From Stieleria neptunia (lineage in GTDB: Bacteria > Planctomycetota > Planctomycetia > Pirellulales > Pirellulaceae): a DNA stretch of 64,000 nt. The notes beneath the pieces were generated by a model that did not search any database, was not told the DNA's origin, and saw nothing but the letters and a program-made list of their open reading frames with translations. The stretch spans positions 10,164,938-10,228,937 of the forward strand of contig NZ_CP037423.1 in assembly GCF_007754155.1 (NCBI RefSeq), read 5' to 3'. Of this stretch, positions 38,198 through 63,060 are shown one piece after another; within the stretch, counting starts at the first letter, position 1; each line of letters opens with the position of its first letter. Made by a program: the position numbers and the translations under genes.

Positions 38198-38213
38198 TGG
38201 GTAGTGCGGTGCA

Positions 38214-40399: not shown

Positions 40400-40482
40400 A
40401 GCATCTGGTTAGTGCTCCGCAAAATAAGTCGAAAAAAACTCTGATTCGCCAATTACTCTCGCACAATTCTGAGCCTAACCAT

Positions 40483-40503
40483 GCATACCATGGTAGGGTA
40501 TGC
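40483..40503. promoter_or_regulatory. Putative CsoR operator before copA
   Basis: Arms GCATACC (40483-40489) and GGTATGC (40497-40503) are a perfect inverted repeat separated by seven bases. Inside is TACCATGGTAGGGTA (40486-40500), close to the TACCC-N5-GGGTA form of CsoR-type copper operators. It lies 35 bases before the copA ATG at 40538, where a repressor would block transcription or its start. A csoR gene is at 45053. Confidence 0.65.
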
Positions 40504-40537
40504 GTTTCATGCCAATTCAACCGCCCGGAAAGCAACG

Positions 40538-42928
40538 ATGTCTACCCGCGAGCTAGCTACAAAGGACCCTGTATGTGGAATGAACGTGCAGTCGGGGCAG
40601 GCGCGACACACGGAGTATCAGGGGACCTCTTACTTTTTTTGTAGCGAGGGGTGCCAGAAAAAATTTGAGGCCGATCCTGCTGGCGTGTTGGCGGCACGTG
40701 CCGAAAAAGAATCGACACAGGCGATGAGTGACTCCGACCCCTTGTCGCCTGGTGGCCATGAAAGTGGTGCATCGGAGTCGACCGGTGCGGACGATACTCT
40801 AGAAAGGTCAACGGCGATTTTCACCTGTCCGATGCATCCTGAAATCGAGCAGGCTGGGCCGGGAGACTGCCCGATTTGCGGGATGGATTTGGAGCCGAAG
40901 GTTGCCCAAGTGGAAAGCCACGGCGATCACGATCAGTACATTGATATGAAGAGACGTTTCTGGGTCGGCGTTACGCTGTCGCTCCCGCTGTTGGTGATTG
41001 CGATGGGTCCGATGGTAGGAGTTCGTTTGACGGATTTTTTGTCAAGTGGCGTGTCATCATGGCTGCAGCTCGTGTTGGCTACTCCAGTCGTGTTCTGGTG
41101 TGGATGGCCACTATTGGCGCGCGGAGCGAAGTCGTTTCGCTCGATGAGCCTAAATATGTTCTCGTTGATAGCGGTCGGAACGCTGGCCGCCTATCTCTTC
41201 AGTCTTGTTGTTGTGCTGGTTCCTGGAGCAATCCCCGAAGCCTTTTTCGAAAATGGCGTTCCGCCGCTCTATTTCGAAGCGGCTGCGGTAATCATCACCT
41301 TGGTACTCTTGGGGCAAGTTTTGGAATTGCGAGCCCGGCAGCAGACCGGCGGGGCCATCCGTGAGTTGATGCAGTTGGCACCGGACACCGCACACCGAAT
41401 TACTGACGATGGTGAAGAAGAAGTTTCGCTCGATGAAGTTCAAAAAGGTGATCGACTGAGAGTACGTCCGGGAGAGAAGGTGCCCGTTGATGGCAAGGTC
41501 GTGAGTGGTTCGAGCAGTGTGGACGAATCGATGCTGACCGGTGAGCCGATTCCGGTAAAAAAATCAGAAGACGATGATGTGACTGGCGGTACGCTAAACC
41601 AAACGGGAGCACTCGTGATTGAGGCTATCGGAGTAGGCGGCGATACCGTGCTCAGTCGCATCGTGCAAATGGTTGCCGACGCGCAGCGAAGTCGGGCTCC
41701 CATTCAAAAACTAGTTGACATCGTGGCCCGATACTTCGTCCCAGCAGTGATCGTCTGTTCGATCCTGGCCTTTGTCGGATGGGCTCTGTTTGGCCCAGAA
41801 CCTCGATTGGCTCACGCATTCGTGGCCGCGGTTGCAGTACTGATCATCGCTTGCCCATGTGCTTTGGGCCTGGCAACGCCCATGTCTGTGATGGTTGGTG
41901 TCGGACGCGGTGCAAAAGAAGGCGTGTTAATCAAAAACGCTGAAGTGCTCGAAGTGATGGAGAAGGTTGACACGGTCGTCGTCGACAAAACGGGAACACT
42001 GACGCAGGGGCGACCGGAAGTCACGGCGGTCGAGACATTCGGTACCTGGGGCGAAGACGACGTGTTGCGGATGGCTGCGGCGGTAGAGAGCCAGAGTGAA
42101 CATCCGCTTGCTCAGGCGGTCGTCCGGCGAGCGAAAAGCGACGATCTACAATTGGCTGAGGCGAGCGATTTCAACAGCATCACCGGTGGCGGTGTTCATG
42201 CCCGAGTCGGTCAGCACGAGGTTGTGATTGGCAAAGCGGACTTGCTTGACGAACAAGGCGTGACCGGTGTCGATGCGGGCCGAGAGAAAGCAGGTTCGCA
42301 TCAAGCCGAAGGTGCAACGGTAGTGTTTGTCTCGATTGACAACTCGCTCGCTGCGATCCTCGCCATTACCGATCCGATCAAGGAAAGCACGCCCTCGGCA
42401 TTGAATACGCTGCATCATCTCGGGTTAAAGGTCGTGATGCTGACAGGCGATGCTGAACTGACCGCGAAAGCCGTGGCAAACGAGTTGGGCATTGATGAGT
42501 TTCATGCGGGCGTTTCACCTAAGGACAAACACGAATTTGTCCAGAAACTGAAGCGAGAAGGCAAGATCGTCGCGATGTGCGGTGATGGAATTAACGACGC
42601 ACCGGCATTAGCCGAGTCCAACGTGGGCATTGCGATGGGAACCGGAACTGGCGTCGCGATCGAGTCAGCGGGTGTCACACTCGTAGGCGGTGACCTACGG
42701 GGGGTCGCGGCGGCGGGTAACCTGAGCCGAAAGACGATGAGTAACATCCGGCAAAATCTGTTCTTCGCCTTCATTTACAATGCCCTCGGTATTCCCGTCG
42801 CGGCGGGGCTTCTGTACCCATTCTTTGGCGTTTTGCTCAGTCCTATGATTGCTGCAGCGGCGATGAGCTTGAGCAGTGTGTCCGTGATTGCGAACGCATT
42901 GCGTCTTCGAACAGCCAAGCTGACCTGA
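40538..42928 (+). CDS. copA: Copper-exporting P1B-type ATPase CopA
   Basis: 796 residues from ATG 40538 ([15 protein letters not shown]); the open frame from 40481 would run through the operator, so it is rejected. N-terminal YHS domain ([20 protein letters not shown], about 10-45), then a heavy-metal-binding domain ([23 protein letters not shown], about 95-121) in place of ferredoxin-like HMA domains. Eight membrane segments are expected. CPC is at 439-441 in [14 protein letters not shown] in LTGEP; D483 in DKTGTLT is phosphorylated; SEHPLAQA and [13 protein letters not shown] are intact. It pumps Cu(I) from the cytoplasm to the periplasm using ATP. It is first in the copper island and preceded by a CsoR-like site. 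Confidence 0.95.
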
Positions 42929-43067
42929 ATGGCTTTCGTGTTAGCGACGGATCTTTCACGGATTTCTTTGGTTTTCCGTGAAGAAACGACCTTCAGCGAT
43001 CATCTAAACTCCACACATGGTTGAAAATTCGCACTCCCGTGGCGAAACGTCGCCTAAAGGAGTGCTG

Positions 43068-43595
43068 ATGTTCGTAAGCGAAGTGGTGATTGAGCGAGCG
43101 ATTTACGGTGAGTCGGAGGCTCAGCGCGAGATTTACGAGGCACTTTATCCTCGCGTCTACCGGCTGGTCCGGCGGATCGCTGGTGAAACGGATGCGGACG
43201 ATGTGAGCCAAGATGCGTTCATGCAGGTGCTGTCGAAGCTGGATTCGTATGGCGGCAAATCTGCATTCGCAACTTGGGTCCATCGTGTCGCAGTCAATCA
43301 GGCTCTGCAGCACGTCCGCTCTCGCAGTCGGCATCCAGCCGAACCGCTCTACGAGAGTTCGATGACCGGACATGACACGAGAGGACCAGCTGGGTTATCC
43401 GAGCTTTTGGACGCGGCGATGCATCGAATTGATGTCGAGCTGAGATTAGTCTTCCAGCTCAAAGAGATTGACGGGATGGCCTACGCAGAGATCGCGCAGA
43501 CGGTGGGAATTCCCGAGGGGACAGTTGCCTCGCGAATGAATCGAGCAAGGCGCGAACTTCAGCTACAACTTATTGATCTTGGGTGGGAACCTTAA
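43068..43595 (+). CDS. ECF sigma factor of the copper island (with ZAS anti-sigma partner)
   Basis: 175 residues from ATG 43068 (MFVSEVVIERAIYGE), with AAAGGAG six bases upstream; the frame is open from 43017. Region 2: YEALYPRVYRLVRRIAGETDADDVSQDAFMQVLSKL and SAFATWVHRVAVNQALQHVRSR; region 4: LVFQLKEIDGMAYAEIAQTVGIPEGTVASRMNRARREL. A standard RpoE-like ECF. One base separates its stop from the ATG of the anti-sigma gene. The Cys-cluster partner and the location suggest a metal response. It is a close paralogue of the sigma factor at 60478 (both end in LGWE). Confidence 0.9.
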   Translation: MFVSEVVIERAIYGESEAQREIYEALYPRVYRLVRRIAGETDADDVSQDAFMQVLSKLDSYGGKSAFATWVHRVAVNQALQHVRSRSRHPAEPLYESSMTGHDTRGPAGLSELLDAAMHRIDVELRLVFQLKEIDGMAYAEIAQTVGIPEGTVASRMNRARRELQLQLIDLGWEP

Positions 43596-43596
43596 C

Positions 43597-44511
43597 ATGC
43601 GATGCCAAGAAGCCGCTGAAAAGCTTTCGGCTTACTTTGATAATGAACTCGACAGTGAAATTGCGGCCCAAGTGAGCCAGCATGCGGAGTCGTGTTCAGC
43701 CTGCCAAGCCGAATTGCGATCTTTTGCGGGGATTCGCGAGCTAGCGACGCAGTATCGTGAACCGGCCGCCAAAGCGCCGTCCTGGGAGGCGTTTGCCTCG
43801 CGAATGAATTCCGCGGAGCCGATGGTACTGCGTGCGTCTGCGAAAAAGCCCAGCGGCCGTCAGAGATTGAAAGATACCGCAATCATCATCGGCGCGCTCG
43901 CGGCCTCTGTTTTAGTATTGCTGTCGCTTCGACAAGGCCAAGTGCCGAGTGAACACACGGTTGCCCAACAGCATTCGCATGACCATTCTCATCCCGGAGC
44001 AATGGCTGGCATGGCGCCAACGCCCATCGACTTTCAAGATGTCGTTCTGGATTTCGATCAGGATTCCAACATGGCCGTAAGTTCGTTTGCTTCCAAGTAC
44101 GACGGAACAGAAGTGTCGATTGACGAAGCAGAAAAGGACATGGGCTTCCGACCTCAGGCGAGAAAGTCGCTTCCTGCGGGCGTTCAGTTGGTTTCGACAC
44201 GATTGTTGAAATTGCCTGAATGCAACTGCGCCGAAGGCGAATGTTTATGTGGTCCGGATGGTTGCAATTGCGTCGCATGTGTTTGCCAGCGTCCCGACGG
44301 ATCGACGTTCATGCTGGTCGAAAAGTGCAAGTCTCAAAAGGTGAGTTTCGGCGATTTGCCGGTACAGCTTGTACGTCGAGGAAATCGAGAGTTGCAGGTT
44401 ACTCAAGGCAAGAATGGGCTAGCCGCTTCTTGGGAAGGCACTCACGCAAGGATGACCGCGATTGGTTTGCGTGATGAGATCGAATTGGGCGTGCTTTTGG
44501 CGGCGAACTGA
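43597..44511 (+). CDS. Transmembrane zinc-finger anti-sigma factor with C-terminal Cys cluster
   Basis: 304 residues from ATG 43597; an in-frame ATG at 43573 lies inside the sigma gene. N-terminal ZAS domain with H29-x3-C33-x2-C36 (HAESCSAC), as in RsrA/ChrR-type anti-sigma factors. One membrane span (about 93-111, DTAIIIGALAASVLVLLSL). Outside lies a His patch (QQHSHDHSHPG, 125-134) and then a cluster C209, C211, C216, C218, C223, C225, C228, C230 (CNCAEGECLCGPDGCNCVAC), metallothionein-like, with C244 further on. I infer that Cu or another soft metal binds here and releases the sigma factor encoded just upstream. The known ECF metal sensors I recall carry such motifs on the sigma factor (CorE type), so this placement is unusual. 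Confidence 0.82.
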   Translation: MRCQEAAEKLSAYFDNELDSEIAAQVSQHAESCSACQAELRSFAGIRELATQYREPAAKAPSWEAFASRMNSAEPMVLRASAKKPSGRQRLKDTAIIIGALAASVLVLLSLRQGQVPSEHTVAQQHSHDHSHPGAMAGMAPTPIDFQDVVLDFDQDSNMAVSSFASKYDGTEVSIDEAEKDMGFRPQARKSLPAGVQLVSTRLLKLPECNCAEGECLCGPDGCNCVACVCQRPDGSTFMLVEKCKSQKVSFGDLPVQLVRRGNRELQVTQGKNGLAASWEGTHARMTAIGLRDEIELGVLLAAN

Positions 44512-45052: not shown

Positions 45053-45340
45053 ATGCTTACCAACGACGAAAAAAGGAAACTCAACAACCGACTTCGCCGC
45101 GTCGTAGGGCAGGTCGAGGCTGTCGGGCGGATGATCGAGAACGAGGATTATTGTGTGGACATTCTGATGCAACTGTCGGCGGCAACAGGCGCTCTGGGAA
45201 AAGTCGGCCAGATCGTTTTGGAAGAGCATCTAAAAACGTGCGTTGCTGAGGCGGTTCAGAATGGTAACGCGAAAGAACGCGAGGAAAAGATTGACGAACT
45301 GGTGAAACTGTTTCGCAAGTATGCGGGAGTCATTGATTGA
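45053..45340 (+). CDS. csoR: CsoR/RcnR-family copper-sensing repressor
   Basis: 95 residues, all alpha. LNNRLRRVVGQVEAVGRMIE is the conserved first helix; the Cu(I) ligands C34 (EDYCVDIL), H59 and C63 (EEHLKTCV) keep the exact spacing of CsoR (Cys-x24-His-x3-Cys), the C-H-C set that distinguishes copper sensors from RcnR-type Ni/Co sensors. Apo-protein would bind operators of the form TACCC-N5-GGGTA and release them on Cu(I) binding. Candidate sites lie at 40483 (copA) and 61968 (Met-rich gene), with a weak one upstream of itself. Cytoplasmic tetramer. Confidence 0.93.
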   Translation: MLTNDEKRKLNNRLRRVVGQVEAVGRMIENEDYCVDILMQLSAATGALGKVGQIVLEEHLKTCVAEAVQNGNAKEREEKIDELVKLFRKYAGVID

Positions 45341-45611
45341 CGTGGAACGATTCGTCCTACTCGCTACCAGCTTGCACTCGCTCGAACCCTGCATGACCAA
45401 TCATCGCGCCACGCATCGAGGTGGCTAGACTGACGAATCGTTTTTTTGGATGCTCACTCGATCTCAATTCTTCAGCCATTCCCACTATTCTTGGGAAATC
45501 GTCCGGTTTCTTCGGTGAGCTGTCGATTCGTGAAGTTTTCGGGGATTCAGAGCATCCAACCAGTTCAGCTCAATTTTTCTGAGCGTTTATCAATTCCGAT
45601 GTGAGGAACTT

Positions 45612-47837: not shown

Positions 47838-47843
47838 GCTAGT

Positions 47844-50244: not shown

Positions 50245-51654
50245 CTATCGAAGCGTTGGAGCAATTACCCCCTGCTGTGCGAGAACGGCCAACCACTTTT
50301 GAGGTTCCGCCGCAATCTTCTTCGCGCAGCCAGGGCAGCAGATATAAATCGCTTTGCCAGCGGCATGAACTTTATAGGGGCCACCCATCGCGTCGAGTGG
50401 TTCATCCATCACAGGGCATTTCTGTTGAGCAGCGATAAAGGGATTGTCCTCGGCACTGACTTTGAAGATCCCTTCGCGAACTTGTTCGGTGCCAGCAGCA
50501 ACGCTCCCGGACACCCCGACTCCCCCGCTCCCCATCTGGTTTTCGTAGACCATTGCCAGGTACTTTGCTGGTTCGGCTTTGATCTTTTTGATGCAGCCCT
50601 TGCAGCACAAGAAGATCGGCTTGTCACCGACCATGACCTTGATCGGATTCCCCATGCTCCCCAGTGGTTCATCCATCACGGGGCAAACCTTTTGCCGAGC
50701 AATTAAAGCCGCGTCCGCCTGAGTCGAAGAGGTCACGGAAATGCTGAAGTCGCCAGCGCTCGCTCCTTCACTTCCGACTCCCCCACTCCCCTTCTGATCG
50801 CCATAAACCATCGCCAAGTACTTCGCTGGTTCCGCTTGGACCTTCTTGATGCAGCCCTTGCAACACAGATAGATTGGCTTGTCGCCAACGGTCACTTTGA
50901 TCGGTGTGCCCATGCCACCGAGCGGCTCGTCCATCACGGGGCAGACTTTCTGCTCAGCGATCGCCTTCGCGTCGGCCGCCGTCGAAGTTGCTACGGTTAT
51001 TTGAGGACGTCCGGCCGCGTACTTCGCGGGATCGGACTTGACGGCATTTACGCAGCCACCACAACAAACGAAGACACGCTGGCCGTTCACGTCCACGGCC
51101 ACGGGATCACCCATGCTGCCGAGAGGCTTGCCGCTGACGGGACAGATTTTTTGGCGTGCAATCGCGGCGGCGGCGAGCTGGATTTCGCTGGCCGGAACCG
51201 TTGCCACTTCCTTCAGGCTGAGCGGTTGCCCGCTACTGGATTCGATACCGACGAGTTGGATGTCAATCTCGATCTGACGTCCAGCAATCTGGGAAAGGTT
51301 CACCGGGGCGGTCAGGCCGCCCTTGCCATCGGGCAACAAATCGTAGCGGTAACGTTTCGCATTGCCCTCGACACGAAGTGATGCGGCTCCGCGACCTTGG
51401 TTGACCGACACGGCTCGGCCGTTGCGGTCGTAGACGAACATTTGAATGCCGCCTTGTGAAACGACCGTTTCCAATTGAACGCCACCGGCTTGTTTCAAAG
51501 AACCGCCGTGGGGTCCGGCGACCGGACGAGCAAGTTCGGACGCCATCGTCTGACCCGGCATCGTGTGGTTGTGACCAGCATGATTGTGCTGAGCAACCGC
51601 TGTTGAGGCCAAAGTAACCGTGAACAAGGCGGCAAATAGGGTTTTGTACTTCAT
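50245..51654 (-). CDS. Exported protein with four Cys-rich metal-binding repeats (TRASH/YHS-like)
   Basis: 469 residues; signal peptide MKYKTLFAALFTVTLASTAVAQ followed by HNHAGHNHTMPGQTM, a His/Met metal-binding leader. Residues about 40-155 form a beta domain. Then come four copies of C-P-V-x5-L-x2-M-G-x-P-x-x-V ... C-C-x-G-C: C171/C197/C198/C201, C238/C264/C265/C268, C324/C350/C351/C354, C413/C439/C440/C443. The 26-1-3 spacing is identical in all four. Each would hold one soft metal ion, so about four per molecule. Linkers are Gly/Ser-rich (GSGGVG). It lies 167 bases downstream of cusA on the same strand. I infer a periplasmic copper buffer or chaperone feeding CusBA. TRASH/YHS relation is by pattern only. 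Confidence 0.75.
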   Translation of the reverse strand: MKYKTLFAALFTVTLASTAVAQHNHAGHNHTMPGQTMASELARPVAGPHGGSLKQAGGVQLETVVSQGGIQMFVYDRNGRAVSVNQGRGAASLRVEGNAKRYRYDLLPDGKGGLTAPVNLSQIAGRQIEIDIQLVGIESSSGQPLSLKEVATVPASEIQLAAAAIARQKICPVSGKPLGSMGDPVAVDVNGQRVFVCCGGCVNAVKSDPAKYAAGRPQITVATSTAADAKAIAEQKVCPVMDEPLGGMGTPIKVTVGDKPIYLCCKGCIKKVQAEPAKYLAMVYGDQKGSGGVGSEGASAGDFSISVTSSTQADAALIARQKVCPVMDEPLGSMGNPIKVMVGDKPIFLCCKGCIKKIKAEPAKYLAMVYENQMGSGGVGVSGSVAAGTEQVREGIFKVSAEDNPFIAAQQKCPVMDEPLDAMGGPYKVHAAGKAIYICCPGCAKKIAAEPQKWLAVLAQQGVIAPTLR

Positions 51655-51821
51655 CGAAATTCATTCCTTTCTAAGCGTATGCGACCGATTCCTTTGGCCG
51701 CTTCGGTTGTCAGTTGGATGCCTGGCGACCAGGAATCCTTCACCTGTTTCTAAAAAAAATCTGGGAGTCTGGGAGACAAGGAGCACAATTTCTCCCTGAC
51801 TCCCCCCTCTCCGTGTCTCCA

Positions 51822-54800
51822 CTAAGCTGCACTCCCCATCGCTTCCGTTGGCATTTCTTCGGTTCCTTCCCAAAGCTCATCCTTAAACCCAAACCGCATC
51901 TTCATTTCCAGGTAGGCGCTGTAGAGCGTTGGGACGATGAACGACGTGAACGGCTCGGCAAGCATGCCACCAAAGACCGGGATCGCCATCGCGCGGGCCA
52001 CGTCGGCTCCGCGACCGGTTGCAATCAGAACCGGGACCAGGGCGGCCAAGGTCGTTACCGTCGTCATCATGCAGGGGCGAATACGCTTCAATCCGGCTTC
52101 GTAGACAGTGTCGCGGATGTCCTGAACGGACGTGACCTTTCGTTTTTGCAGCAACTGATGGATGTAAGTCGCCATCACGACGCCATCGTCCACGGCGAGG
52201 CCGAAAAGCGCGATGAAGCCAACCCAGACGGCGGTGTTGAGTTCCACCTCCATCCATGCCACCAAGATCATTCCGCCAGCGAACGCGACCGGAATGCCCG
52301 TGAAGACGGCCATCGCAATCGGCAAATTGCGGAATTCAAAATAGATCAACAACAAATTGATCATGATCACCACGGGGATGATCCACATCAACCGCAAGTT
52401 GGCCTCAATCTGGTTGCGAAAACTGCCGACCGCTTCGAGCGAGTAGCCGGCGGGAAGCCCCAAGTGATCCGGGTGGGATGGCGGAAGCGATTGAGCCACA
52501 CGAAGTTGATCTTCGATCGCCGTCACCGATTCCAAATCACCCTGCGAACCATTCGTCATGAAGGAAACGTGAGCAACCAGCCGTCCGTTTTCGCTATTGA
52601 TCGCTCCCGGTCCCCAAGTCGTTTCCAGCGTTGCTAATTCTTCTAACGGTACAACCGCTCCACTGTGCGTGACCACGGGTAGTCGATTGAGTTGGTCGAT
52701 GCGTTCGCGAAGATCACGGTTGTAACGCAATCGCACGGGATACCTTTCGCGGCCTTCGACGGTCTTGATAAGATTCATTCCGCCGAGGGCAGTCTCTATG
52801 ACTTGGTTGACCATCGAAGCACTCATGCCGTAACGAGAGGCGGCTTCGCGATCGACCGTGAATTCGATATAGGGTTTTCCGAGCACGATGTCCGGGTTCA
52901 CCGTTCCCTCGTTGATGACCGGTGACTTCTTCAACGTTCCCGCCACGTCCATCGCGGCGCTGGCTAGCGTCTTCAGGTCGTCGCCATACACTCGAATCGC
53001 CATCGGTGCCTTGATGCCCGATTGCAGCATCACGACTCGGCCTTCGATCGGTTGCAAAGCCGACGCGGGGGTGACACCCGGAAGTGTGGCGACTTTGTTG
53101 ATCTCATCCCAAACATCACGCGCCGTCACGCCCTCGCGCCATTCGCTTTCAGGTTTAAGCATGACGTAGGTTTCGACCATCGCCGCAGGAGCCGGGTCCA
53201 GCGCCGACTCAACGCGACCGATCTTACCGAGCACGTCTTTGACCTCATGAATCTGGCCGATCAAAACATCTTGCGTTTGCAACACCTGCATCGCTTGCGA
53301 AAAGCTGGCTGCGGGATACAGCGTCGGCATGTAAAACCAACTGCCTTCGTCCAACGCGATCCAGTCGTCGCTTTGCAGTCCGGTAAAAACGTGTTTGGCA
53401 TCAACGTAGCCGGGGAAGTCGTTTAGTTCAGCACCGAATACGCGGGCAATACGTTCGATTGGCTGCAAAACCACTGGCATCCCGAAATAGGCTCCAAGTC
53501 CAACGAACAGCAAAATGACCGGAAACGAAAGTGCGAACACCTTGTGATTCAGAGCGTGCTTCAATCGGGCCGCATAAACCCAATGAACAAATCGACTCGA
53601 CGGAATCTCTTCGATCGGACGAATTCGTTCGCGAAGAAGTTGCCAACCAAAGACGAAAGCGAGCAACCCAGCTGCCACGGTGATCATCCATTGCTCGACA
53701 CCAAAGTGCTCGGCAAGGTCATCGCCCCACATAAAATGCGAGGTTGCGGCGAGTAAAGCGGAAAACGCGACACCAGCACTTAGTGCGGTGCGTTTTCTAT
53801 AGTTAGCACTTCGCAGCATGATACGGCTCAATGCGGGCACAATCGTGACAGCAGTGATCATCGCAGCGGCAATTGCGAATGTTTTCGTATAAGCCAACGG
53901 CGAGAACAGACGGTAATCGCGGCCAGTCAAAAAGAACACGGGCAAGAAACTGACTATTGTCGTTAAAACGGCTGTGACGACCGCCGGAGCGACCTCGATA
54001 GTCGCCTCGTAGACGATTTCCGTCCTCGACTTCTCCCGATCTGCTCCACTGCGTGTCTCCCCATCTTCCTTCTCCCAGTCCGCCAAATGCTGGTAGATGT
54101 TTTCGGAGACGATGATCCCCATGTCGACCATCGTGCCGATCGCGATGGCAATGCCTGCCAGCGACATGATGTTCGCCTCGACTCCCACGAAGTGCATCGC
54201 GATGAAGGAAATCAAAACAGCGGCCGGCAAACAGATCGCAACGACGAAACTGCTGCGGATGTGAAGCAGGAAAAGTAAGATGATGACTGCGGTGATGATG
54301 ATCTCATCACGCAGTGCGTGCGTCAGCGTCGCCATCGTCTCGTCGATCAACCCGCTGCGGTCGTACACGCCGTGAATCTTGACGCCCTTGAGCGCCGGCT
54401 CGATCGCAGCGATCTTGGCTTTGACACGGTCGATGACCACGCGAGGGTTCTCGCCATAGCGCATCACCACCACGCCGCCGACTGCTTCGGAACCGTTGTA
54501 ATCCAACGCACCGCGACGGAAATCAGGCCCGAGTTGGACCTGCGCCACGTCACTCACACGGACCGGCACACCTTCTCGCTGAAGAATGACGGTATCTTCG
54601 ATGTCGGAGACGGCTTTGGACTGATCGCCATCGGTTCCCAGGAAACCTTTGCCGCGAACGATGAATTCCATTCCCGTCGATTCGACCGTCTTGGCACCGA
54701 CATCCAGGTTCGACCCCTTGATTGCCATCGCCAGTTTGTCCAGCGAGACGTTGTAGAATCGCAGTTTGTCTGGATCGACCTCGATTTGATATTGGCGGAC

Positions 54801-55349
54801 GTAACCACCGATCGACGCGACTTCGCTGACCCCTTCGACCGCTTGCAATTCGTACTTCACAACGAAGTCTTGCAGGCTGCGAAGTTCGGCGAGACTCATG
54901 CCGTCTTCGGGCGGTTGCAGCGTGTAGTAGTAGACTTGTCCGAGTCCAGTTGCATCAGGACCGAGTTGCGGAACGACACCATCGGGCAACTGCGATGCGG
55001 CACTGCCGAGTTGTTCCGAGACTCGACTTCGAGCCCAGTAGAAGTCAATCGAATCCTTGAAAGTGACCTGCACAAAGCTGTAGCCGAACATGCTTTTGCC
55101 GCGAACGGATTCAGCACCGGGAACAGCCAGCAACGATACACTCAGCGGATAAGTGACCTGGTCCTCGATGTCTTTCGGCGAACGCCCCGGCCATGGTGTC
55201 AACACAATGACCTGGTTTTCACCGACATTCGGAATCGCGTCGATCGGAACCGCCTTAAATGCGAACCAGCCGCCGACGCTGAGGCCAATCGTCAGCATGA
55301 CGACCAGCCACGGTTCTTTGACGCAAAAGCGTATGAGTAGAGTTAGCAT
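51822..55349 (-). CDS. cusA: CusA-type heavy-metal RND efflux pump
   Basis: 1175 residues from ATG 55349 (MLTLLIRFCVKEPWLVV); an open extension to 55448 overlaps the cusB end and is rejected. HME-RND features: LTPWPGRSPKDIEDQVTYPL, GLGQVYYYTLQ, TMVDMGIIVSEN (proton-relay Asp of TM4), DEGSWFYMPTLYPAASF, GRVESALDPAPAAMVETYV, LQSGIKAPMAIRVYG, GLAVDDGVVMATYIH. It is longer than E. coli CusA (1047) because of an extra stretch with two hydrophobic segments (about 560-620) between the first and second pump halves. It exports Cu(I)/Ag(I) through a CusABC complex, driven by protons. It follows cusB with a 64-base gap. Confidence 0.93.
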   Translation of the reverse strand: MLTLLIRFCVKEPWLVVMLTIGLSVGGWFAFKAVPIDAIPNVGENQVIVLTPWPGRSPKDIEDQVTYPLSVSLLAVPGAESVRGKSMFGYSFVQVTFKDSIDFYWARSRVSEQLGSAASQLPDGVVPQLGPDATGLGQVYYYTLQPPEDGMSLAELRSLQDFVVKYELQAVEGVSEVASIGGYVRQYQIEVDPDKLRFYNVSLDKLAMAIKGSNLDVGAKTVESTGMEFIVRGKGFLGTDGDQSKAVSDIEDTVILQREGVPVRVSDVAQVQLGPDFRRGALDYNGSEAVGGVVVMRYGENPRVVIDRVKAKIAAIEPALKGVKIHGVYDRSGLIDETMATLTHALRDEIIITAVIILLFLLHIRSSFVVAICLPAAVLISFIAMHFVGVEANIMSLAGIAIAIGTMVDMGIIVSENIYQHLADWEKEDGETRSGADREKSRTEIVYEATIEVAPAVVTAVLTTIVSFLPVFFLTGRDYRLFSPLAYTKTFAIAAAMITAVTIVPALSRIMLRSANYRKRTALSAGVAFSALLAATSHFMWGDDLAEHFGVEQWMITVAAGLLAFVFGWQLLRERIRPIEEIPSSRFVHWVYAARLKHALNHKVFALSFPVILLFVGLGAYFGMPVVLQPIERIARVFGAELNDFPGYVDAKHVFTGLQSDDWIALDEGSWFYMPTLYPAASFSQAMQVLQTQDVLIGQIHEVKDVLGKIGRVESALDPAPAAMVETYVMLKPESEWREGVTARDVWDEINKVATLPGVTPASALQPIEGRVVMLQSGIKAPMAIRVYGDDLKTLASAAMDVAGTLKKSPVINEGTVNPDIVLGKPYIEFTVDREAASRYGMSASMVNQVIETALGGMNLIKTVEGRERYPVRLRYNRDLRERIDQLNRLPVVTHSGAVVPLEELATLETTWGPGAINSENGRLVAHVSFMTNGSQGDLESVTAIEDQLRVAQSLPPSHPDHLGLPAGYSLEAVGSFRNQIEANLRLMWIIPVVIMINLLLIYFEFRNLPIAMAVFTGIPVAFAGGMILVAWMEVELNTAVWVGFIALFGLAVDDGVVMATYIHQLLQKRKVTSVQDIRDTVYEAGLKRIRPCMMTTVTTLAALVPVLIATGRGADVARAMAIPVFGGMLAEPFTSFIVPTLYSAYLEMKMRFGFKDELWEGTEEMPTEAMGSAA

Positions 55350-55413
55350 TGTTGGCCTCCCTCCAGTGGACCAAAATTCTTGGCACGCACCTGACACAAT
55401 TTTGATCGCTCGT

Positions 55414-57594
55414 TCATTGCATCTCTCCGTTGTCCGTGCCAAATCCAACCACCTTGAAACTCACTTCTTGTCCATCGCCGTTGGCGGTATTTATGGCCAG
55501 ATCGCGAACCGTCTCGCCGCACGTCAGCATCTCGCTGCCCCAGTACGGGTTTTGCAATTCACCGCCGGGTTGCATCCAATCGCCGCCACCGCCGGGGACC
55601 ATCGGGCAATACATGTGGACCAGCGACTTGGCGGTTTTAGGGCCGCGTGCAATCGTTGCGGCGTGCAACATCGCGTGGCTGACACTGCGATACGCTTCGC
55701 GAGCGGTTTCGAGGGAACCGTCCATCCGCGACGCTCCGCGACGGGCGCTAGCGAATCGTGTTTGTGCTGTGTCAGGAACTTCCGCCAACATTTCCAGCTT
55801 GTTAAGTGAATCCAGTAGAGTATTGAGCGCAACGGGTGGTGGCGTCACGTCGGCCGCCATCGCGCATTGAATCTCAAAATAGGCATCGTATGCCCGATCG
55901 AATTGCTCGCCGGATTGACCCGCAAGCATCACAGGATCACGACTGGGGAGATCAAGCGGACCGGGCGAATAACTCGGTGCCTTGCTGGGGTCCATCAAGG
56001 ACGGGTTTCCCGCAAGCTGCATTTGCGAGTCAATCAAGAAGTTGCCATTGGTTGCAACCGTTTCCCCAGCGGCCATGCCTTCGACGATGATCGCGTCGTC
56101 GTCATTCATCGCGCCGACGGTAACGCGGCGAATTTCAAAACGCCCCGGCTCGGTCTCGACATAGACGACACCCCGCTCACCCGTCAGCAACACGGAGTCA
56201 CGAGGCACGGTGACGACGCGCTGGGCTTCGACGGGTTTTGGCGAATAGCCCAGTTGCGATGTCGGAATCAGATCCATGCCACAAAGGGGACAATCGCCGG
56301 GTTCATCGCGGATCACTTGCGGGTGCATCGGGCTGATGTATTTTTCGGCCAGTGCCGGGTCGTAAACCATGTCGACCGGGACCGCGGGAACGCTGACCCG
56401 AGCCGTCGCATAGTCGCCGGGCCGCAGCTTGCCGTCATAGTTCATCACTTCGACGCGAACGCGAACGGTTCGAGTCACCGGGTCGACCGTGGGGTCGATG
56501 AAGGCGACACGCCCAGTGAAGACTTCGCCCGGCATCGACTGAATTTCTGCTTCGACTTGTTGACCGAAACGGACCAACGAAGCGTCGTCGGGGAATAGGT
56601 CCAACATCATCCAAACGGAGGTCAGGTCCGCGATGCGATAAATTTTCTGACCCGTTTTGACATAGTCACCTTCGACCGCTGCCTTTTCCAGTACCGTTCC
56701 CGTCTGAGGCGACTTGATTCGGATGCGTGACTGCGGCTTGCGGCTCTTGCCAAGGTCTTCGATTTGCCCGGTCGTCATTCCGAGTTCGCTGAGGTTTTCG
56801 CGTGCCATCGCTTGCATGTCGGGACTGTTGATACTGAATCGCCCCACCGAATTGCTTTCCAAGCTGGTGATGTACTCTGTCTGCGCGGAGTACAGCTTGG
56901 GGCTGTAGATCAACGCCAAGTCGTCGCCTTCTTTGACTTTGACACCGACATAGTCGGCATACAATTCTTCGAGTCGCCCGTCAATGTATGCGGAGATCGT
57001 TGACAGTCGGCTTTCGTCAAAGTCGATCGAGCCGATCGTGCGAATCGTTCGATTCATCTCGCCCATCTTGCTGGTCGCGGTTTGAATGCCAACCAGCCGC
57101 CGCGCCGATGATTCAATCGTGACTGAGATCCCGTCGCCGCCACCGCCGCCGGTTGCTTCAACCAACTCCATTGCACAAACGGGGCAGCGGCCCGGTTCGG
57201 TCGATGGCGGAGTACACATCATCGGGCAGATATATCGTTTTTCCTCGCCGCCGCCCGCATCGGCGACCGCTTCCGACTCGCCACCGGAGAAACCATTGGC
57301 GGTCACCCATTCGGAACGTTGTGCGAAGCCAATCATGACCAAAATTAATGCGGCCACGGCGGTGACGACAGCTGCGTTCACTCCAACGCGCAAAAGCCAT
57401 CCAAAGCCACCGACTTTCGTTTCCGCCAACGCCGTCGATGAAGCGGGTGCTTCCGGAGTGCTGGCTTCGGCCGGTGATTCTGGCTGGTTTGCTGGGTCGG
57501 CTGAATCCGTTGCGTCGACCTTGGCGTCTGATGACTTCGTTTCCGCTGACGCGGCCGGTTTCTCGTCCGTACTAGGCTGATGACTCTTGTTCAT
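55414..57594 (-). CDS. cusB: CusB-type membrane fusion protein with two metal-binding modules and DUF3347-like tail
   Basis: 726 residues from ATG 57594, which has AAGGAGG eight bases upstream; the frame also runs up to an ATG at 57714. A low-complexity acidic/Pro N-terminus, then one membrane anchor (about 69-90). Heavy-metal-binding module 1: YICPMMCTPP..PGRCPVCAMELVEA (121-147). Periplasmic adaptor core: SARRLVGIQTA, IDGRLEELYADYVGVKVKEGD, RIKSPQTGTVLEKAAVEGDYV, RIADLTSVWMMLDLFPDDA, RPGDYATARVSVP. Module 2: YISPMHPQVIRDEPGDCPLCGMDLIP, placed after the beta-barrel. C-terminus: DRAYDAYFEIQCAMAAD.., MYCPM.., LQNPYWGSEMLTCGE, a DUF3347-like domain. It links CusA to the outer-membrane factor and passes metal to the pump. 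Confidence 0.9.
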   Translation of the reverse strand: MNKSHQPSTDEKPAASAETKSSDAKVDATDSADPANQPESPAEASTPEAPASSTALAETKVGGFGWLLRVGVNAAVVTAVAALILVMIGFAQRSEWVTANGFSGGESEAVADAGGGEEKRYICPMMCTPPSTEPGRCPVCAMELVEATGGGGGDGISVTIESSARRLVGIQTATSKMGEMNRTIRTIGSIDFDESRLSTISAYIDGRLEELYADYVGVKVKEGDDLALIYSPKLYSAQTEYITSLESNSVGRFSINSPDMQAMARENLSELGMTTGQIEDLGKSRKPQSRIRIKSPQTGTVLEKAAVEGDYVKTGQKIYRIADLTSVWMMLDLFPDDASLVRFGQQVEAEIQSMPGEVFTGRVAFIDPTVDPVTRTVRVRVEVMNYDGKLRPGDYATARVSVPAVPVDMVYDPALAEKYISPMHPQVIRDEPGDCPLCGMDLIPTSQLGYSPKPVEAQRVVTVPRDSVLLTGERGVVYVETEPGRFEIRRVTVGAMNDDDAIIVEGMAAGETVATNGNFLIDSQMQLAGNPSLMDPSKAPSYSPGPLDLPSRDPVMLAGQSGEQFDRAYDAYFEIQCAMAADVTPPPVALNTLLDSLNKLEMLAEVPDTAQTRFASARRGASRMDGSLETAREAYRSVSHAMLHAATIARGPKTAKSLVHMYCPMVPGGGGDWMQPGGELQNPYWGSEMLTCGETVRDLAINTANGDGQEVSFKVVGFGTDNGEMQ

Positions 57595-58008
57595 GCTTGA
57601 CCCCTCCTTGTTTTCAGGCACGGATGCTTCGCCAGTTGTTTGAGCGACTGGCTCGAAGTGCTTTTCCGAAACCTCGTCCGTTAAATTATTAGTGAGATGA
57701 TTTTGATTTGACATATAGATGAACTCCGCATCGCCGAATCGTTGGCGAAGACGCGAAAACTGCGGCTGATCGACGACAAACCGGAGGCAATTTGCCGCTA
57801 ATAAGTCACTCGCCGTCAGGCTGTGAATGGTCGGACGGAATTCAACCGTCGATCGAAACTGGGTTTGAAGCGGTCCATTCGCGGGCGTCGAACAAACTGC
57901 ATACGCGCGGGGCGCAGGATTTAGCAAAGAACAGCCAAGAGCAAACGAAAGATCGTTTGAACACGCGGTCTGTGTGAAACTCGCGTGAAACTGCTCAAGC
58001 AGACAGAC
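57595..58008 (-). other. Leader/intergenic region upstream of cusB
   Basis: 414 bases. The cusB frame continues upstream to an ATG at 57714 (MSNQNHLTNNLTDEVSEKHF), giving either a 40-residue extension or a leader peptide, and is open to 57927. ACATATAGATG near 57711 is AT-rich. No CsoR-type site was seen here. No other gene. Confidence 0.4.
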
Positions 58009-58645: not shown

Positions 58646-58730
58646 AAATACACTCAGAAAGTTCAAGACGAATATGATTCATCACGGAACTTTTCATCAT
58701 GAAAGGATAGCTGGACGGAGCCAGTTTGTC

Positions 58731-60395
58731 ATGCGCACCCCAAAAAGCACGGTTTTTTCACGAACTCGCAGGCGGCATTTGCTGGCTTTGTCCCTGATCA
58801 CACTCTCCGTTGGCGGTTGTGCAAGCGGGCCCGTTCGTCCCAACGCGTCGCGGCACGCCGCAACGCGACCGACGGTCAGCGAAGAGCCATTGGGGGACAA
58901 ATTGCGGCAGGCCGCACCCGCCGAAAGCGACGACTTGACCTTTCATACCGTGGGGTACGGCGAGCCTCTGGCGAGTGGCGGAGTTGTACTCGCGACACAA
59001 CTCGACCTCTCACCGCCGATGCGGTTGGGGGACGAGGACGAAGATGGCGAAACGAAGCCAACGACGCTCGGGGAAATGCTTGAAAACAACGACGTAGATC
59101 AGGTCAACGAAAATTCCGACTACAACGAGGACAAAAGTGACGGACAGCCGGGAGTTGGCAACGCAGCTAACTCATTTGGTGAGGCGGATAGGGTCGGGAC
59201 GCGACAACCCATCGACTACTTCATCGCCCAGGCTCTGGCGGCTCACCCCAGCATTCAAGCCGCACGCCAACGTGTTCAGGCGGAACTGGATCGGATTCCG
59301 CAGGTCACCGCATTGCCGGATCCTCAATTCAACAACACGTTCTGGCCGCTACATGACAACTCAATTCAAACAGCTTCCGGGCGCGTTGCCAACCAGATGT
59401 CGCTACAGCAGGGCGTCCCATTTCCAGACAAGCTGCGCACCAAAGGCTCCATCGCTAGTCGCGAGGCACAGATGGCCCAGGCGGAAGTGGAACGCATCGA
59501 ACGACAGATCACTGAATCGGTTCGCTTAGCCTATTACGAAGTTTGGTACGCGACTCGTGCGATCGCGATCATTAAAGAATCTCGCGACCTAGTCGACGAC
59601 CTTGCCAAAGTAGCCGAGGCACGCTATCGCAGCGGTGGAACACAGCAGGACGTGCTTCGGGCGCAGCTGGAAATCGACCGACTTGATGATCAGATTGTGC
59701 AACTGAACAAGCAACTGGGGATGTCGCAGGCCGACCTTGCGGCGTTGCTTCAACAACCCGTTTCATTGTTGCCTCAAGCGGTCGAGGAACTTGGCGTCGC
59801 CGACGCGCCAATGCAGCTCGAAGGATTGATTGCCCAAGCCGAGCAATGCAATCCGAGCTTGCGTGGCTTGGCCGCAGAGATTCAACGTGATCGCCAAAAG
59901 CAACGACTCGCTTGCCTGCAGCAATATCCCGACTTCATGGTCGGACTCAATTGGGGAATCGTCAGCGACAACCACGATGTGATCAGTCCGGTGGCTAATG
60001 GTAACGACCAACTTAGCATCACCTTTGGGACAACACTTCCGATCTGGCGTGAGAAGATCAATGCGGGTGTTCGAGAAGCTTCACGACGAGCGAGCAGCAC
60101 GCAACAACGCCTGGAAGCTGAGCGTGATGAAATCTATGGCCGTCTGCGTCGATTGCTAGTTCAAGCTGACTCACTGGTCGAACAAACGAACATCTACGAA
60201 AACCGCCTTATCCCCAGAACTGAAGACACATTGAAGTTAGCGATCGCCGACTATCGTGGTGAACGTACCGACTTTTTCACGTTGATTGAAACCTATCGCG
60301 AGCTATTGATGTTTGAGACGCAGCTTGCTCGCATCAACGCGACCCTAGCCGGTGCGATCGCCCAGATTGATCGCACGGTCGGGTGTCCGTATTGA
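58731..60395 (+). CDS. TolC/CusC-family outer-membrane efflux lipoprotein
   Basis: 554 residues from ATG 58731 (MRTPKSTVFSRTRRR); the longer frame from 58674 is less likely. The lipobox is TLSVGGC, so lipid-anchored like CusC. An unusual acidic, low-complexity region (about 90-155: DEDEDGETKPTTLGEMLENN) precedes the OEP core. The two OEP repeats are seen at AQALAAHPSIQAARQRVQAE..VRLAYYEVWYATRAI and AEQCNPSLRGLAAEIQRDRQ..LFTLIETYRELLMFETQLAR-like helices. It is the exit duct of the CusBA pump, transcribed divergently from the rest of the cus genes. Confidence 0.88.
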   Translation: MRTPKSTVFSRTRRRHLLALSLITLSVGGCASGPVRPNASRHAATRPTVSEEPLGDKLRQAAPAESDDLTFHTVGYGEPLASGGVVLATQLDLSPPMRLGDEDEDGETKPTTLGEMLENNDVDQVNENSDYNEDKSDGQPGVGNAANSFGEADRVGTRQPIDYFIAQALAAHPSIQAARQRVQAELDRIPQVTALPDPQFNNTFWPLHDNSIQTASGRVANQMSLQQGVPFPDKLRTKGSIASREAQMAQAEVERIERQITESVRLAYYEVWYATRAIAIIKESRDLVDDLAKVAEARYRSGGTQQDVLRAQLEIDRLDDQIVQLNKQLGMSQADLAALLQQPVSLLPQAVEELGVADAPMQLEGLIAQAEQCNPSLRGLAAEIQRDRQKQRLACLQQYPDFMVGLNWGIVSDNHDVISPVANGNDQLSITFGTTLPIWREKINAGVREASRRASSTQQRLEAERDEIYGRLRRLLVQADSLVEQTNIYENRLIPRTEDTLKLAIADYRGERTDFFTLIETYRELLMFETQLARINATLAGAIAQIDRTVGCPY

Positions 60396-60477: not shown

Positions 60478-61059
60478 TCATTCCCAACCGAGCTGCAGTA
60501 AGACTTCACGCAAATCGGCACGGGCACGGTTCAACCTCGAACCGACCGTGCCTTCTGGAATACCAACCGCGTCGGCGATTTCGCGGTACGACAAATCCTC
60601 TTGCTCCTTCAGCACCAAGACGACTCGTAACTCCGGGTCAATTCTTGACAAGGCAACGTCAAGCAACTCGCCTTGCTCTGTCCGCTCCCTCGTGTCGTGG
60701 GAATACCCCGATGGATCATCGAGCAACGAGTCCGTCGTGTGACGAGACCTTGAACGAATGAACTGCAGAGCTTCGTTGCTAGCCAGGCGGTAAACCCAAG
60801 TTTCCAGCTTCGACCGGCCATCGAATTTATCAAGCTTGCGGAACAGGTGGATGAAGACTTGCTGCGTCGCATCGTCCGCATCCTGAATTCCGACCATGCG
60901 GACCATCTGCGCGTACACCCGCTGGCTACACCGTTCATACAGCATACACATCGCGTCCTGGTCGCCCGCAATGCAAGCAGCCACCATTTGCTTTGTGGAA
61001 TCTTGATCCGCAACTGCAGAGTCGTCGAACGCGGATTGGTCACTCGGGTGGCTATTCAA
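60478..61059 (-). CDS. Second ECF sigma factor of the copper island, no adjacent anti-sigma
   Basis: 193 residues. Region 2: MLYERCSQRVYAQMVRMVGIQDADDATQQVFIHLFRKLDKF and SKLETWVYRLASNEALQFIRSR; region 4: LVLKEQEDLSYREIADAVGIPEGTVGSRLNRARADLREVLLQLGWE. Very similar to the 43068 sigma in length and C-terminus (LGWE). No ZAS or FecR gene follows; downstream lies the end of the TolC-like gene on the other strand. It is divergent from the 61253 gene with 193 bases between, so it may drive that gene. It may share the Cys-cluster anti-sigma factor at 43597 (inference). Confidence 0.88.
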   Translation of the reverse strand: MNSHPSDQSAFDDSAVADQDSTKQMVAACIAGDQDAMCMLYERCSQRVYAQMVRMVGIQDADDATQQVFIHLFRKLDKFDGRSKLETWVYRLASNEALQFIRSRSRHTTDSLLDDPSGYSHDTRERTEQGELLDVALSRIDPELRVVLVLKEQEDLSYREIADAVGIPEGTVGSRLNRARADLREVLLQLGWE

Positions 61060-61252
61060 TCAGGGGTTCCTTCGCGTTACAGGCCGTGCAGAATCCAACG
61101 CTGCAGTCGACAGGCGTGCGAATCCGCACGTCCATGCCGAGACAATTTTGCAGCGTTTTCGTGAAGAACCCGAATCGAGCCAGCATCCAATTACCCGATT
61201 GAGGAAACGACCTCAACAAAGAATTCTCCCCTCTCCTCGAACAGGAAAATAG

Positions 61253-61855
61253 ATGTCCACGAAACACGTCGGTAAATTGCTGCTCGGTTTGGCAGTCATG
61301 TTCGCCGCCACCTCCCTTGTTCCGCAACCCGTCTTGGCACAGAGCAAAATTCGATCGCCAGTCGAACGACGGCAAGACCCAGGTGGCGGATTTTGGGCAA
61401 ACCAGCGAGCTTCCCGCAACATCCAGCACGCCCGGAACTACTCGCAAAGTATCCAACGATACGCGACCCAGGCGCCGGTGATCCGGCCGCAGGTCACGCA
61501 AGCGGAATCGCAATTGCTCGGCAATCAAATCCAGAGCATTCAGCGAGAAATGGTGGTCATTCGCGACCAAAATGCGAGCAGCCCACAGGTCGTCGAGCAG
61601 GTCAAGGCGATTGAATCGAAGTTGTCCAAAGTGGCTGACACACAGGAAATGCTGCACGCCGAATGCTGCAAAGACTCGCCCGACGGAAAGGTTTGTGGTG
61701 ACATTTCGAAGAAGATTACGGCCGCGCTCGACCAGATCGTAAAAGACCATGCCAAGCTGATGAAGACGATGGGCCACGAGGACGCCGCTCATGACGCGAT
61801 GAAACACGACCACTCCACCACCGAAGGCGAGACGCCAGCAAAAAGCGGTGAGTGA
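61253..61855 (+). CDS. Exported protein with Cys motif and His-rich tail
   Basis: 200 residues; signal peptide MSTKHVGKLLLGLAVMFAATSLVPQPVLAQ. The mature protein is largely helical (AESQLLGNQIQSIQREMVVI, QVVEQVKAIESKLSKVA). A Cys motif MLHAECCKDSPDGKVCGD lies near 143-160 and the C-terminus is His-rich (HEDAAHDAMKHDHSTTE). I recognise no named family. Given the neighbours, a periplasmic metal-binding helper is likely. The Met-rich/Spy-like gene follows in the same direction after 200 bases, with a CsoR-type site between them. Confidence 0.65.
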   Translation: MSTKHVGKLLLGLAVMFAATSLVPQPVLAQSKIRSPVERRQDPGGGFWANQRASRNIQHARNYSQSIQRYATQAPVIRPQVTQAESQLLGNQIQSIQREMVVIRDQNASSPQVVEQVKAIESKLSKVADTQEMLHAECCKDSPDGKVCGDISKKITAALDQIVKDHAKLMKTMGHEDAAHDAMKHDHSTTEGETPAKSGE

Positions 61856-62055: not shown

Positions 62056-63060
62056 ATGAAATTCACGTCACCGTTGAGTAAACGGACCCTTTCAGCCGCT
62101 TTGATCGCCAGCAGCCTACTTTTGTCCTCTCCTTCGTTATTTGCACAAACCAAAACTGATCCGCATGCCGCTCACCCAGCCGCTTCAGAAACTGCGGACG
62201 GCGACCTCGCCACTCAATTGCAAACGTTGCGCAAGAAAGTGGCCGACCTAGAAACAACCCTGCAGTCGCAACACACAGCTCGCTATGGCGCGGACGCGAA
62301 GCCCGGCGCGATGTCGAATATGGCAATGAGCCAAGATGCTGCCGATCCGTCGTCCGGTTCGGATTCCGCAGGCATGGGCGGAATGAAAGGTATGGACAGC
62401 ATGAAGATGGGTGGAATGAAAAAGGGAATGATGAAGGGGATGGACGGCATGAACCAAGACACGACCGGCTCGTCGATGTCGTCCGGCGGCACGGGCATGG
62501 GAATGAAAGGGATGTCCGGCGGTATGGGAATGATGTCGGGCATGGGAGGAATGTCAGGTGGCATGGGGTTGGGCAAAGGGATGGGAATGATGAAAGGCAT
62601 GGGGATGATGGGGCGTAACCCCGCCATGAAATCATCCATGGATGGGATGGGTTCAATGGGAAACATGAGCATGCCATCCGCCCTGCCAGGCTTTGCCGGC
62701 GCGTCGCACCTGTACCACATCGGCGAGACCGGATTCTTCCTCGATCATCCGCAGCACATCACGCTGTCGGACGATCAACAACTCAAACTGAACCAGATCA
62801 AGGAAGCCGCATTGCTGGCAACCGCCACCGCGGAGCGCCAGATCGAAGAAGCCGAGCAAGAACTCTGGATGCTAACAGCCGAAGCCCAACCCGACATCAA
62901 CAAGATCGAAGCGAAAGCAAGAGAGATCGCCAAACTGCAAGCCGACAATCGCATCGCATTCATCCGATCGGTTGGCGAAGCCGCAAAAGTGTTGACCGAA
63001 GAACAACGCCAAACGCTCGTTGGAACGTCTAGCACAAGTGAAATCGCTCCGGCGAAGTGA
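62056..63060 (+). CDS. Met-rich exported protein with Spy/CpxP-like (LTxxQ) helical domain
   Basis: 334 residues; signal peptide to about LFAQ30, then a short His patch (PHAAHP) and a coiled coil (LATQLQTLRKKVADLETTLQ). Residues 86-206 hold about 35 Met in MGGMKGM-type repeats, a low-affinity Cu(I)/Ag(I) trap like those in CusF, CopK or PcoC-type proteins but far larger. Residues about 220-320 (HPQHITLSDDQQLKLNQIKE.., ATATAERQIEEAEQELWMLT, KVLTEEQRQTLVG) form an LTxxQ/ZraP-like helical hairpin of the periplasmic metal-stress chaperone superfamily. It is preceded by a CsoR-type operator. I infer a dual copper buffer and chaperone. Confidence 0.78.
   Translation: MKFTSPLSKRTLSAALIASSLLLSSPSLFAQTKTDPHAAHPAASETADGDLATQLQTLRKKVADLETTLQSQHTARYGADAKPGAMSNMAMSQDAADPSSGSDSAGMGGMKGMDSMKMGGMKKGMMKGMDGMNQDTTGSSMSSGGTGMGMKGMSGGMGMMSGMGGMSGGMGLGKGMGMMKGMGMMGRNPAMKSSMDGMGSMGNMSMPSALPGFAGASHLYHIGETGFFLDHPQHITLSDDQQLKLNQIKEAALLATATAERQIEEAEQELWMLTAEAQPDINKIEAKAREIAKLQADNRIAFIRSVGEAAKVLTEEQRQTLVGTSSTSEIAPAK

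Follow-up and report, generated by a model that had tools for sequence, protein, structure and literature searches.

The stretch of DNA analyzed here, referred to as the window, comprises 64,000 nucleotides of Stieleria neptunia (Planctomycetota, Pirellulaceae; contig NZ_CP037423.1, positions 10,164,938 to 10,228,937). It contains a gene for an extracytoplasmic function (ECF) sigma factor and, directly downstream, a gene for a membrane anti-sigma factor whose outer part carries a dense cluster of cysteines (Table 1). The open reading frame of the sigma factor extends from 43017 to 43595; the ATG at 43068, with GGAG just 5' of it, is its most likely start, and the protein has no Cys and no C-terminal extension. 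In the anti-sigma factor, H29-x3-C33-x2-C36 can be read directly from the sequence, the zf-HC2 model matches with 36.0 bits (cut-off 22.2), and the N-terminal domain has four helices in the AlphaFold2 model (residues 3-14, 20-32, 34-52, and 63-72). By this motif in a four-helix domain, and by the adjacent sigma gene, the protein is classified as a class I ZAS anti-sigma factor and is predicted to inhibit the sigma factor. When 5.8 billion proteins were searched with the cluster-bearing sequence, 45 matches at 31-100% identity were returned, the query included; at least 90% of them keep H29, C33, and C36, and 44 contain zf-HC2. Seven relatives (31-77% identity) came from a scan of named genomes.

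A hydropathy scan of 88 family sequences found one membrane span in 86 and none in two. On average, 2.9 lysines and arginines occur in the approximately 15 residues before the span and 0.5 after it, and therefore the N-terminus should lie inside and the C-terminal domain outside. The intervening His patch is variable, as many family members have no or only one His at this place. In its modelled fold the outer domain resembles the RseB/MucB small lobe, here fused to the anti-sigma chain, and the second, large lobe is absent from the AlphaFold2 model; RseB/MucB models were not among the Pfam matches of 45 family members. Eight Cys (positions 209, 211, 216, 218, 223, 225, 228, and 230) fall within 22 residues and form a hairpin which, unlike a short free-standing metallothionein, is embedded in a folded domain of about 157 residues. 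All 45 matches have C209, C211, C216, C223, C225, C230, and C244; reading the rows showed C218 to be lost in one and C228 in five. Because seven Cys are invariant, the cluster is not a product of chance. An initial annotation, made from the DNA sequence alone, had already described the sigma/anti-sigma pair, the ZAS motif, a single membrane span, a His patch, and eight Cys in 22 residues beyond the membrane, next to copA and csoR, and had set the Cys domain on the anti-sigma factor against the CorE type, where it resides on the sigma factor. This description holds: copA lies upstream and csoR downstream of the pair, a cytoplasmic placement of the cluster was not seen, the sigma factor is free of Cys, and the conservation of the cluster is apparent with few losses. 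Only the His patch, present in the window protein, is not a constant feature of the family.

Table 1. Features of the sigma/anti-sigma locus and its surroundings in the window.
Feature	Position	Strand	Basis or remark
Heavy-metal P1B ATPase, probably copper-type, CopA-like	40481..42928	+	YHS and HMBD N-terminal domains
Predicted promoter of the ECF sigma gene (autoregulation)	42976..43008	+	CCGTGAAGAAA-N13-TCATCTAAA; matrix score 31.3
ECF sigma factor	43068..43595	+	175 residues; Pfam Sigma70_r2 59.5 bits, r4_2 46.6 bits, both over cut-off
Membrane anti-sigma factor	43597..44511	+	ATG 43597 to stop 44511; 304 residues; directly downstream of sigma
Cytoplasmic ZAS domain, residues 1-72	43597..43812	+	C3, H29, C33, C36
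Single transmembrane helix, residues 90-112	43864..43932	+	AlphaFold2 model, hydropathy
Flexible linker with His patch, residues 113-146	43933..44034	+	Predicted local distance difference test (pLDDT) <50 at 114-137
Outer (periplasmic-side) domain, residues 147-303	44035..44505	+	Modelled fold like small lobe of RseB/MucB
Cys hairpin, residues 209-230, eight Cys	44221..44286	+	14-residue insert relative to cluster-less family members; alignments
Ninth Cys, C244, outside insert	44326..44328	+	Found only together with insert
CsoR-family repressor	45053..45340	+	PF02583 99.9 bits; best NCBIfam RicR 72.3, under its cut-off of 175
Promoter-like site pointing back over csoR	45445..45477	-	Score 20.8
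Predicted promoter, same sigma, upstream of HAMP-SpoIIE gene (split here)	45528..45560	+	Score 20.2
His-bearing protein with YHS/TRASH metal-binding domains	50248..51654	-	Pfam; export signal by eye
Predicted promoter, same sigma, for the TRASH/YHS protein gene	51713..51745	-	Score 21.3
CusA-type resistance-nodulation-division (RND) pump	51825..55448	-	phmmer 2.7e-208 to CusA, 8.1e-127 to ZneA; three E. coli CusA Met aligned
CusB-type membrane fusion protein with HMBD	55417..57927	-	Pfam
Outer-membrane efflux protein	58674..60392	+	OEP PF02321
Second ECF sigma factor, 49% identical to the first, without adjacent anti-sigma	60481..61059	-	Beside efflux operon
Predicted promoter, same sigma, 5' of unknown-function gene, then Metal_resist gene	61159..61191	+	Score 28.0; exact pattern match
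Protein of unknown function	61253..61852	+	Relatives motif-led in several genomes; 8 of 156 sites
Heavy-metal resistance protein (PF13801)	62056..63057	+	Metal_resist 33.7 bits, cut-off 29.2

The protein search described above needs shared words, and relatives without the cluster came only from other searches. Profile searches found many such cluster-less family proteins, and the genome of S. neptunia itself encodes two cluster-less paralogues (29-31% identity). At the aligned site, cluster-less proteins mostly have PCCxC-V-x-x-x-C. The cluster proteins have PxCxC, followed by an insertion of 14 residues (in a few proteins 13) that contains more CxC pairs and then by the V-x-x-V-C part. In a quick maximum-likelihood tree calculated without the insert columns, one branch parts 64 cluster from 23 cluster-less rows (Shimodaira-Hasegawa-like approximate likelihood ratio test, SH-aLRT, 99). 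The tree is unrooted; we infer a gain of the hairpin rather than a loss because of the narrower spread of the cluster. All matches above 230 bits were read, all have the cluster, and they occur in 17 of 241 genomes of Pirellulaceae; the other profile searches gave no match of this strength outside this family, with only part of the first-pass candidates scored in the genome searches, so that absences are read as lower bounds. C209, C211, and C230 are also common in the cluster-less rows (22, 23, and 18 of 23), whereas C216, C218, C223, and C225 (63-64 of 64 cluster rows), C228 (48 of 64), and C244 (64 of 64, or 55 after removal of >90% identical sequences) are found in none of them. The co-occurrence of C244 with an insert outside of which it lies argues for one joint site. 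The outer Cys number nine in 50 of the 64 cluster rows and eight in the other 14.

A common promoter class connects the family. A two-part word search of 24 sigma upstream regions recovered TGAAG-N17-CATC (one base of play) in 19, compared with three in the best of 20 shuffles, and promoters of the GTGAAGAA-N14-GCATCYAA type precede 21 of 23 family-linked sigma genes. A matrix was built from 21 of the 23 non-window upstream regions, with identical spacing in all and the window kept out of training. Besides the site of the sigma gene it scores above 20 at four further window sites, and ten block-shuffled windows peak at 16.0. The loci of cluster proteins contain 72 sites in 426 kb (20 of 20 loci; 11 are training sites), those of cluster-less relatives 37 sites in 439 kb (17 of 22 loci; 10 are training sites), and control loci none in 362 kb. 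Among anti-sigma genes that have no adjacent sigma gene and are not in the training set, all eight with the cluster and 6 of 11 without it are preceded by a site; sites as far as 150 bases into the longest frame were still counted as upstream because such frames often start too early. In the genome of S. neptunia, TGAAGAA-N14-16-CATCYA has eight exact matches (reversed control: one), and seven of them, the window's three included, lie within 67 kb of the 10.98 Mb genome sequence (binomial p 2.5e-15). The strict promoter form, a pattern designed after the sigma upstream regions had been inspected, is present in 27 of 240 Pirellulaceae genomes (reversed control: 0). The anti-sigma family occurs in 25 of these 27 genomes versus 51 of the 213 others (p 2.9e-12, taking all 76 positives of the 241-genome anti-sigma scan as among the 240).

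Across 59 loci, the predicted regulon amounts to 156 sites. The frames behind them encode TRASH/YHS proteins (27), Cys-rich proteins (22), sigma factors (20), anti-sigma factors (17), the family of unknown function (8), oxidoreductases (7), SpoIIE proteins (5), GCGCS-type proteins (4), and His-rich proteins (3); 24 lead other frames, 11 lead none, and eight are duplicates. If sigma and anti-sigma genes are excluded, TRASH/YHS or Cys-rich products account for 34 of 57 motif-led called genes and for 74 of 611 others, with the caveat that gene classes and patterns were defined after the list had been seen and that some listed frames may be spurious. Three of the small proteins behind this promoter type (L099:15460-15798, L163:4018-4254, and L159:8344-8772; L and G numbers are our handles for loci and genomes) consist of 8-16% Cys and have export-signal-like starts. 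Such promoter-led Cys-rich proteins are possibly secreted metallothioneins. The protein encoded at 61253..61852 had no Pfam match. The HAMP-SpoIIE gene is split in the window (45612-46019 and 47832-48926) with a transposase-like gene between the parts (46184-47767, minus strand); it is motif-led in G538, G536, G592, and G531 and forms one frame in L070, L166, and L164.

The surroundings of the sigma/anti-sigma pair are rich in metal resistance genes. The best subfamily model for the upstream ATPase is TIGR01511 (copper), with 595.7 bits (cut-off 397), and its CPC, YN-x4-P, and MSLSS motifs are of the copper type. The three Met of the CusA-type pump are taken here as the functional Met triad of E. 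coli CusA. For comparison, genes for CopA, CusA, CusB, CsoR, and multicopper oxidase were probed within 8 kb on each side of family members. All 20 matches above 230 bits, from 17 genomes, were used as cluster loci (L084, L085, and L086 have identical anti-sigmas); the 22 cluster-less loci were picked from weaker matches to span taxa, plus the two paralogues of S. neptunia, the cluster status of unread weak matches being inferred from score. Of 52 matches in eight genomes, 24 were zf-HC2 matches that do not belong to the family, and 20 of these served as control loci; at four of them (L123-L126) the contig ends early (3-15 kb), and several are not membrane anti-sigmas but fragments of zf-HC2 within long frames. 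At least one probed gene was present in 16 of 20 cluster loci, in 17 of 22 cluster-less loci, and in none of the 20 control loci. The cluster-less S. neptunia paralogue L012 has such neighbours, and the other, L011, does not. TRASH/YHS-like frames within 6 kb occur in 12 of 20 cluster loci (in four of them, the window, L070, L071, and L072, this is the YHS domain of the ATPase itself), 15 of 22 cluster-less loci, and one of 20 control loci. In the Rhodopirellula loci L070 and L071 the gene order is CopA, sigma, anti-sigma, multicopper oxidase, CsoR. Scored RND pumps have the Met triad in 5 of 12 cluster and 12 of 16 cluster-less loci. Pumps with a VDD-type motif in transmembrane helix 4 and without the triad occur in L076, L082-L086, L088, L093, L096, L099, and L104. 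These mixed pump types mean that a link to metal is well supported in general, and one to copper only for the window locus. As the cluster-less relatives reside in the same kind of loci, the cluster appears to refine a metal-linked regulator rather than to create one. Absence of the cluster from orthologues in this context was among the grounds that the initial annotation had named for its own refutation, and this ground partly applies. The tie between CxC clusters and copper genes proposed in the initial annotation thus exists but belongs to the whole family, whose cluster-less members share the context while the 45 matches keep the cluster. A copper signal is likely at the window locus.

On the computed architecture, topology, conservation, single-branch insert, gene context, promoter, and predicted regulon we build a model to which we assign a probability of about two in three: an envelope metal switch, in which a one-chain anti-sigma factor with ZAS and RseB-like domains senses a soft metal and releases an ECF sigma factor. 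Sigma binding, metal binding, the identity of the metal, and the release step are what we infer. The ZAS domain would hold the sigma factor at the inner face of the membrane, and the outer domain resembling the RseB/MucB small lobe would be the sensor. Its hairpin of eight Cys, together with C244, may bind a periplasmic soft metal, most likely Cu(I). Binding would change the outer domain or expose the anti-sigma factor to proteolysis, upon which the ZAS domain would let go. The freed sigma factor would then transcribe its own operon and genes for exported TRASH/YHS proteins, Cys-rich proteins, and other envelope metal functions from promoters of the class described above. Since the sigma and anti-sigma genes are part of the predicted regulon, the loop would shut itself off as metal is removed. 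The cluster-less sister proteins probably read the signal through the shared PCCxC core, to which the hairpin may add capacity, affinity, or a different metal.

Several results weigh against this model. Foldseek on its own gave no match below E 0.001, and confidence in the predicted outer domain is lowest at the hairpin (pLDDT 61). The sigma gene adjoins the anti-sigma gene in 12 of the 20 cluster loci, the window counted, and is not adjacent in the other eight. Neither copA nor csoR nor the cusB-cusA operon of the window is preceded by a promoter site, and of the five sites located there, the one on the minus strand at csoR has no clear target gene, although an antisense transcript is possible. 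The cluster is not needed for a metal context, as the cluster-less loci demonstrate, and four of the cluster loci (L073, L079, L080, and L087) lack the five probed genes within 8 kb, the first three of them having TRASH/YHS frames. The ATPase also passes the cadmium model TIGR01512 (417.9 bits, cut-off 313.5). Finally, the CusA Met triad is missing from 7 of the 12 RND pumps scored in the vicinity of cluster proteins.

The last point, together with the established ability of thiolate clusters to bind several soft metals, would fit a sensor that responds not to copper but to Ag, Zn, Cd, or Hg, or to several metals. This alternative overlaps with the envelope switch rather than excluding it, and we regard it as possible but less probable than copper: the window combines a copper-best ATPase, a CsoR-family repressor, and a CusA with the Met triad, and the Rhodopirellula operons include a multicopper oxidase. 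It is rather unlikely that the cluster has a structural or buffering role, with metal always bound or soaked up and the signal read elsewhere, by protein contacts of the lobe or by proteolysis. The cluster-less relatives, which keep fold, promoter, and context, do suggest the PCCxC core as a possible reader of the basic signal, but the hairpin and C244 occur together in every cluster row, and a purely structural hairpin would be under no obligation to keep eight or nine Cys. Periplasmic thiols can also oxidise to disulfides, and this, too, counts against metal sensing. If envelope oxidation formed disulfides in the cluster, these rather than a metal might release the sigma factor, in keeping with the periplasmic position of the Cys and with the role suggested for the periplasmic Cys of OsrA (PMC4598750). 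We consider such a redox sensor improbable in view of the odd number of outer Cys in most cluster rows, the CxC-rich spacing, the neighbouring metal genes, and the TRASH/YHS and Cys-rich genes that make up the regulon. A CorE-like system, in which the sigma factor itself senses copper, has only the copper context in its favor and can practically be discarded, as the Cys-free window sigma has neither a CxC linker nor a Cys-rich extension and has a linked anti-sigma, which CorE-like sigmas lack (PMC3107203); both defining features are thus missing.

Additional regulators and the history of the locus complete the picture of the window. The second ECF sigma factor groups with the sigmas of L074, L076, L077, L078, and L098 (SH-aLRT 95), five loci whose anti-sigma genes have no adjacent sigma gene. 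The two other family anti-sigmas of S. neptunia have none either. Two close sigmas and three anti-sigmas may thus be connected in a small network that shares a single promoter class. A separate ECF sigma gene followed by one for a FecR-domain protein lies outside the metal genes (37661-39584). In comparisons of fetched loci, several genes of the 40481-61852 island are closer to the Rhodopirellula group (G538 and G536: copA 83-84%, sigma 86-88%, anti-sigma 76-77%, and second sigma 88-89% identity) than to the same genus (G592 and G600: sigma 43-45%, anti-sigma 44-45%, and second sigma 54-56%), which suggests transfer. Counter to this, cusA is about equally similar in G592 (93%) and csoR is closer there (74% versus 48%).

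Among known systems, RsrA and ChrR share the ZAS (zf-HC2) domain with the window anti-sigma. ChrR senses through a cupin domain. RsrA has no membrane or outer part (PMC4598750). The outer domain resembles the RseA-RseB and MucA-MucB systems in its small-lobe fold. RseB and MucB are proteins of their own, carry a large lobe besides the small one, and have no Cys cluster, whereas here the small lobe is fused to the anti-sigma factor; without a separate soluble protein, and with no large second lobe in the model, identity with RseB was rejected. RseB responds to lipopolysaccharide (PMC4598750). OsrA of Bradyrhizobium is likewise a membrane anti-sigma factor with an important periplasmic Cys, but this Cys is single and the signal is oxidative stress (PMC4598750). 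CorE and CorE2 (ECF238, formerly ECF44) resemble the proposed switch in that copper or Cd/Zn is sensed through a Cys-rich part of an ECF system; their Cys domain is on the sigma factor, cytoplasmic, and without a linked anti-sigma (PMC8999054 and PMC3107203). CnrYXH of Cupriavidus metallidurans, whose mode of action the window system is proposed to resemble, has in common with it an envelope metal signal, a membrane anti-sigma factor, an ECF sigma factor, and metal-resistance targets. CnrY is a class II anti-sigma factor, and the metal is sensed by the separate CnrX (PMC7406223 and PMC4598750). Here, ZAS domain, membrane span, and candidate sensor with its thiolate-type hairpin are combined in one chain, and the PF13801 protein is encoded 17.5 kb from the anti-sigma gene; the presence of zf-HC2/ZAS instead of a class II anti-sigma excludes membership in CnrYXH.

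A cluster on the anti-sigma factor was not described in the accessible portions of the open-access literature searched (including PMC10141476, PMC8999054, PMC7406223, PMC8103513, PMC4598750, and PMC3107203), with an earlier mention possible in a review of metal-related ECF factors or in the ECF reclassification. The distinct, possibly undescribed design suggested by the initial annotation is in this respect upheld, with the restriction that the link to metal is not specific to the cluster; the RseB-like fold and the promoter and regulon are additions to it. ECF systems of Planctomycetota are, to our knowledge, largely unstudied. We see an even chance that this is the first membrane anti-sigma factor that itself senses metal outside the cytoplasm, with an RseB-type lobe fused to ZAS, a metallothionein-like hairpin gained once in Pirellulaceae, and a planctomycete regulon dedicated to envelope metal (including small exported proteins rich in Cys, maybe secreted metallothioneins) under its own promoter class. 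The promoter offers a directly testable regulon in Planctomycetota, the cluster-less sister group a natural control for the contribution of the hairpin, and the hairpin anti-sigma could serve as a modular metal-sensing part. As far as the consulted portions of the literature extend, known copper ECF systems have their Cys domain on a cytoplasmic sigma factor (CorE), and envelope metal sensing via an anti-sigma factor needs a second protein (CnrX); the one-chain design, if true, would instead read the metal where it first arrives.
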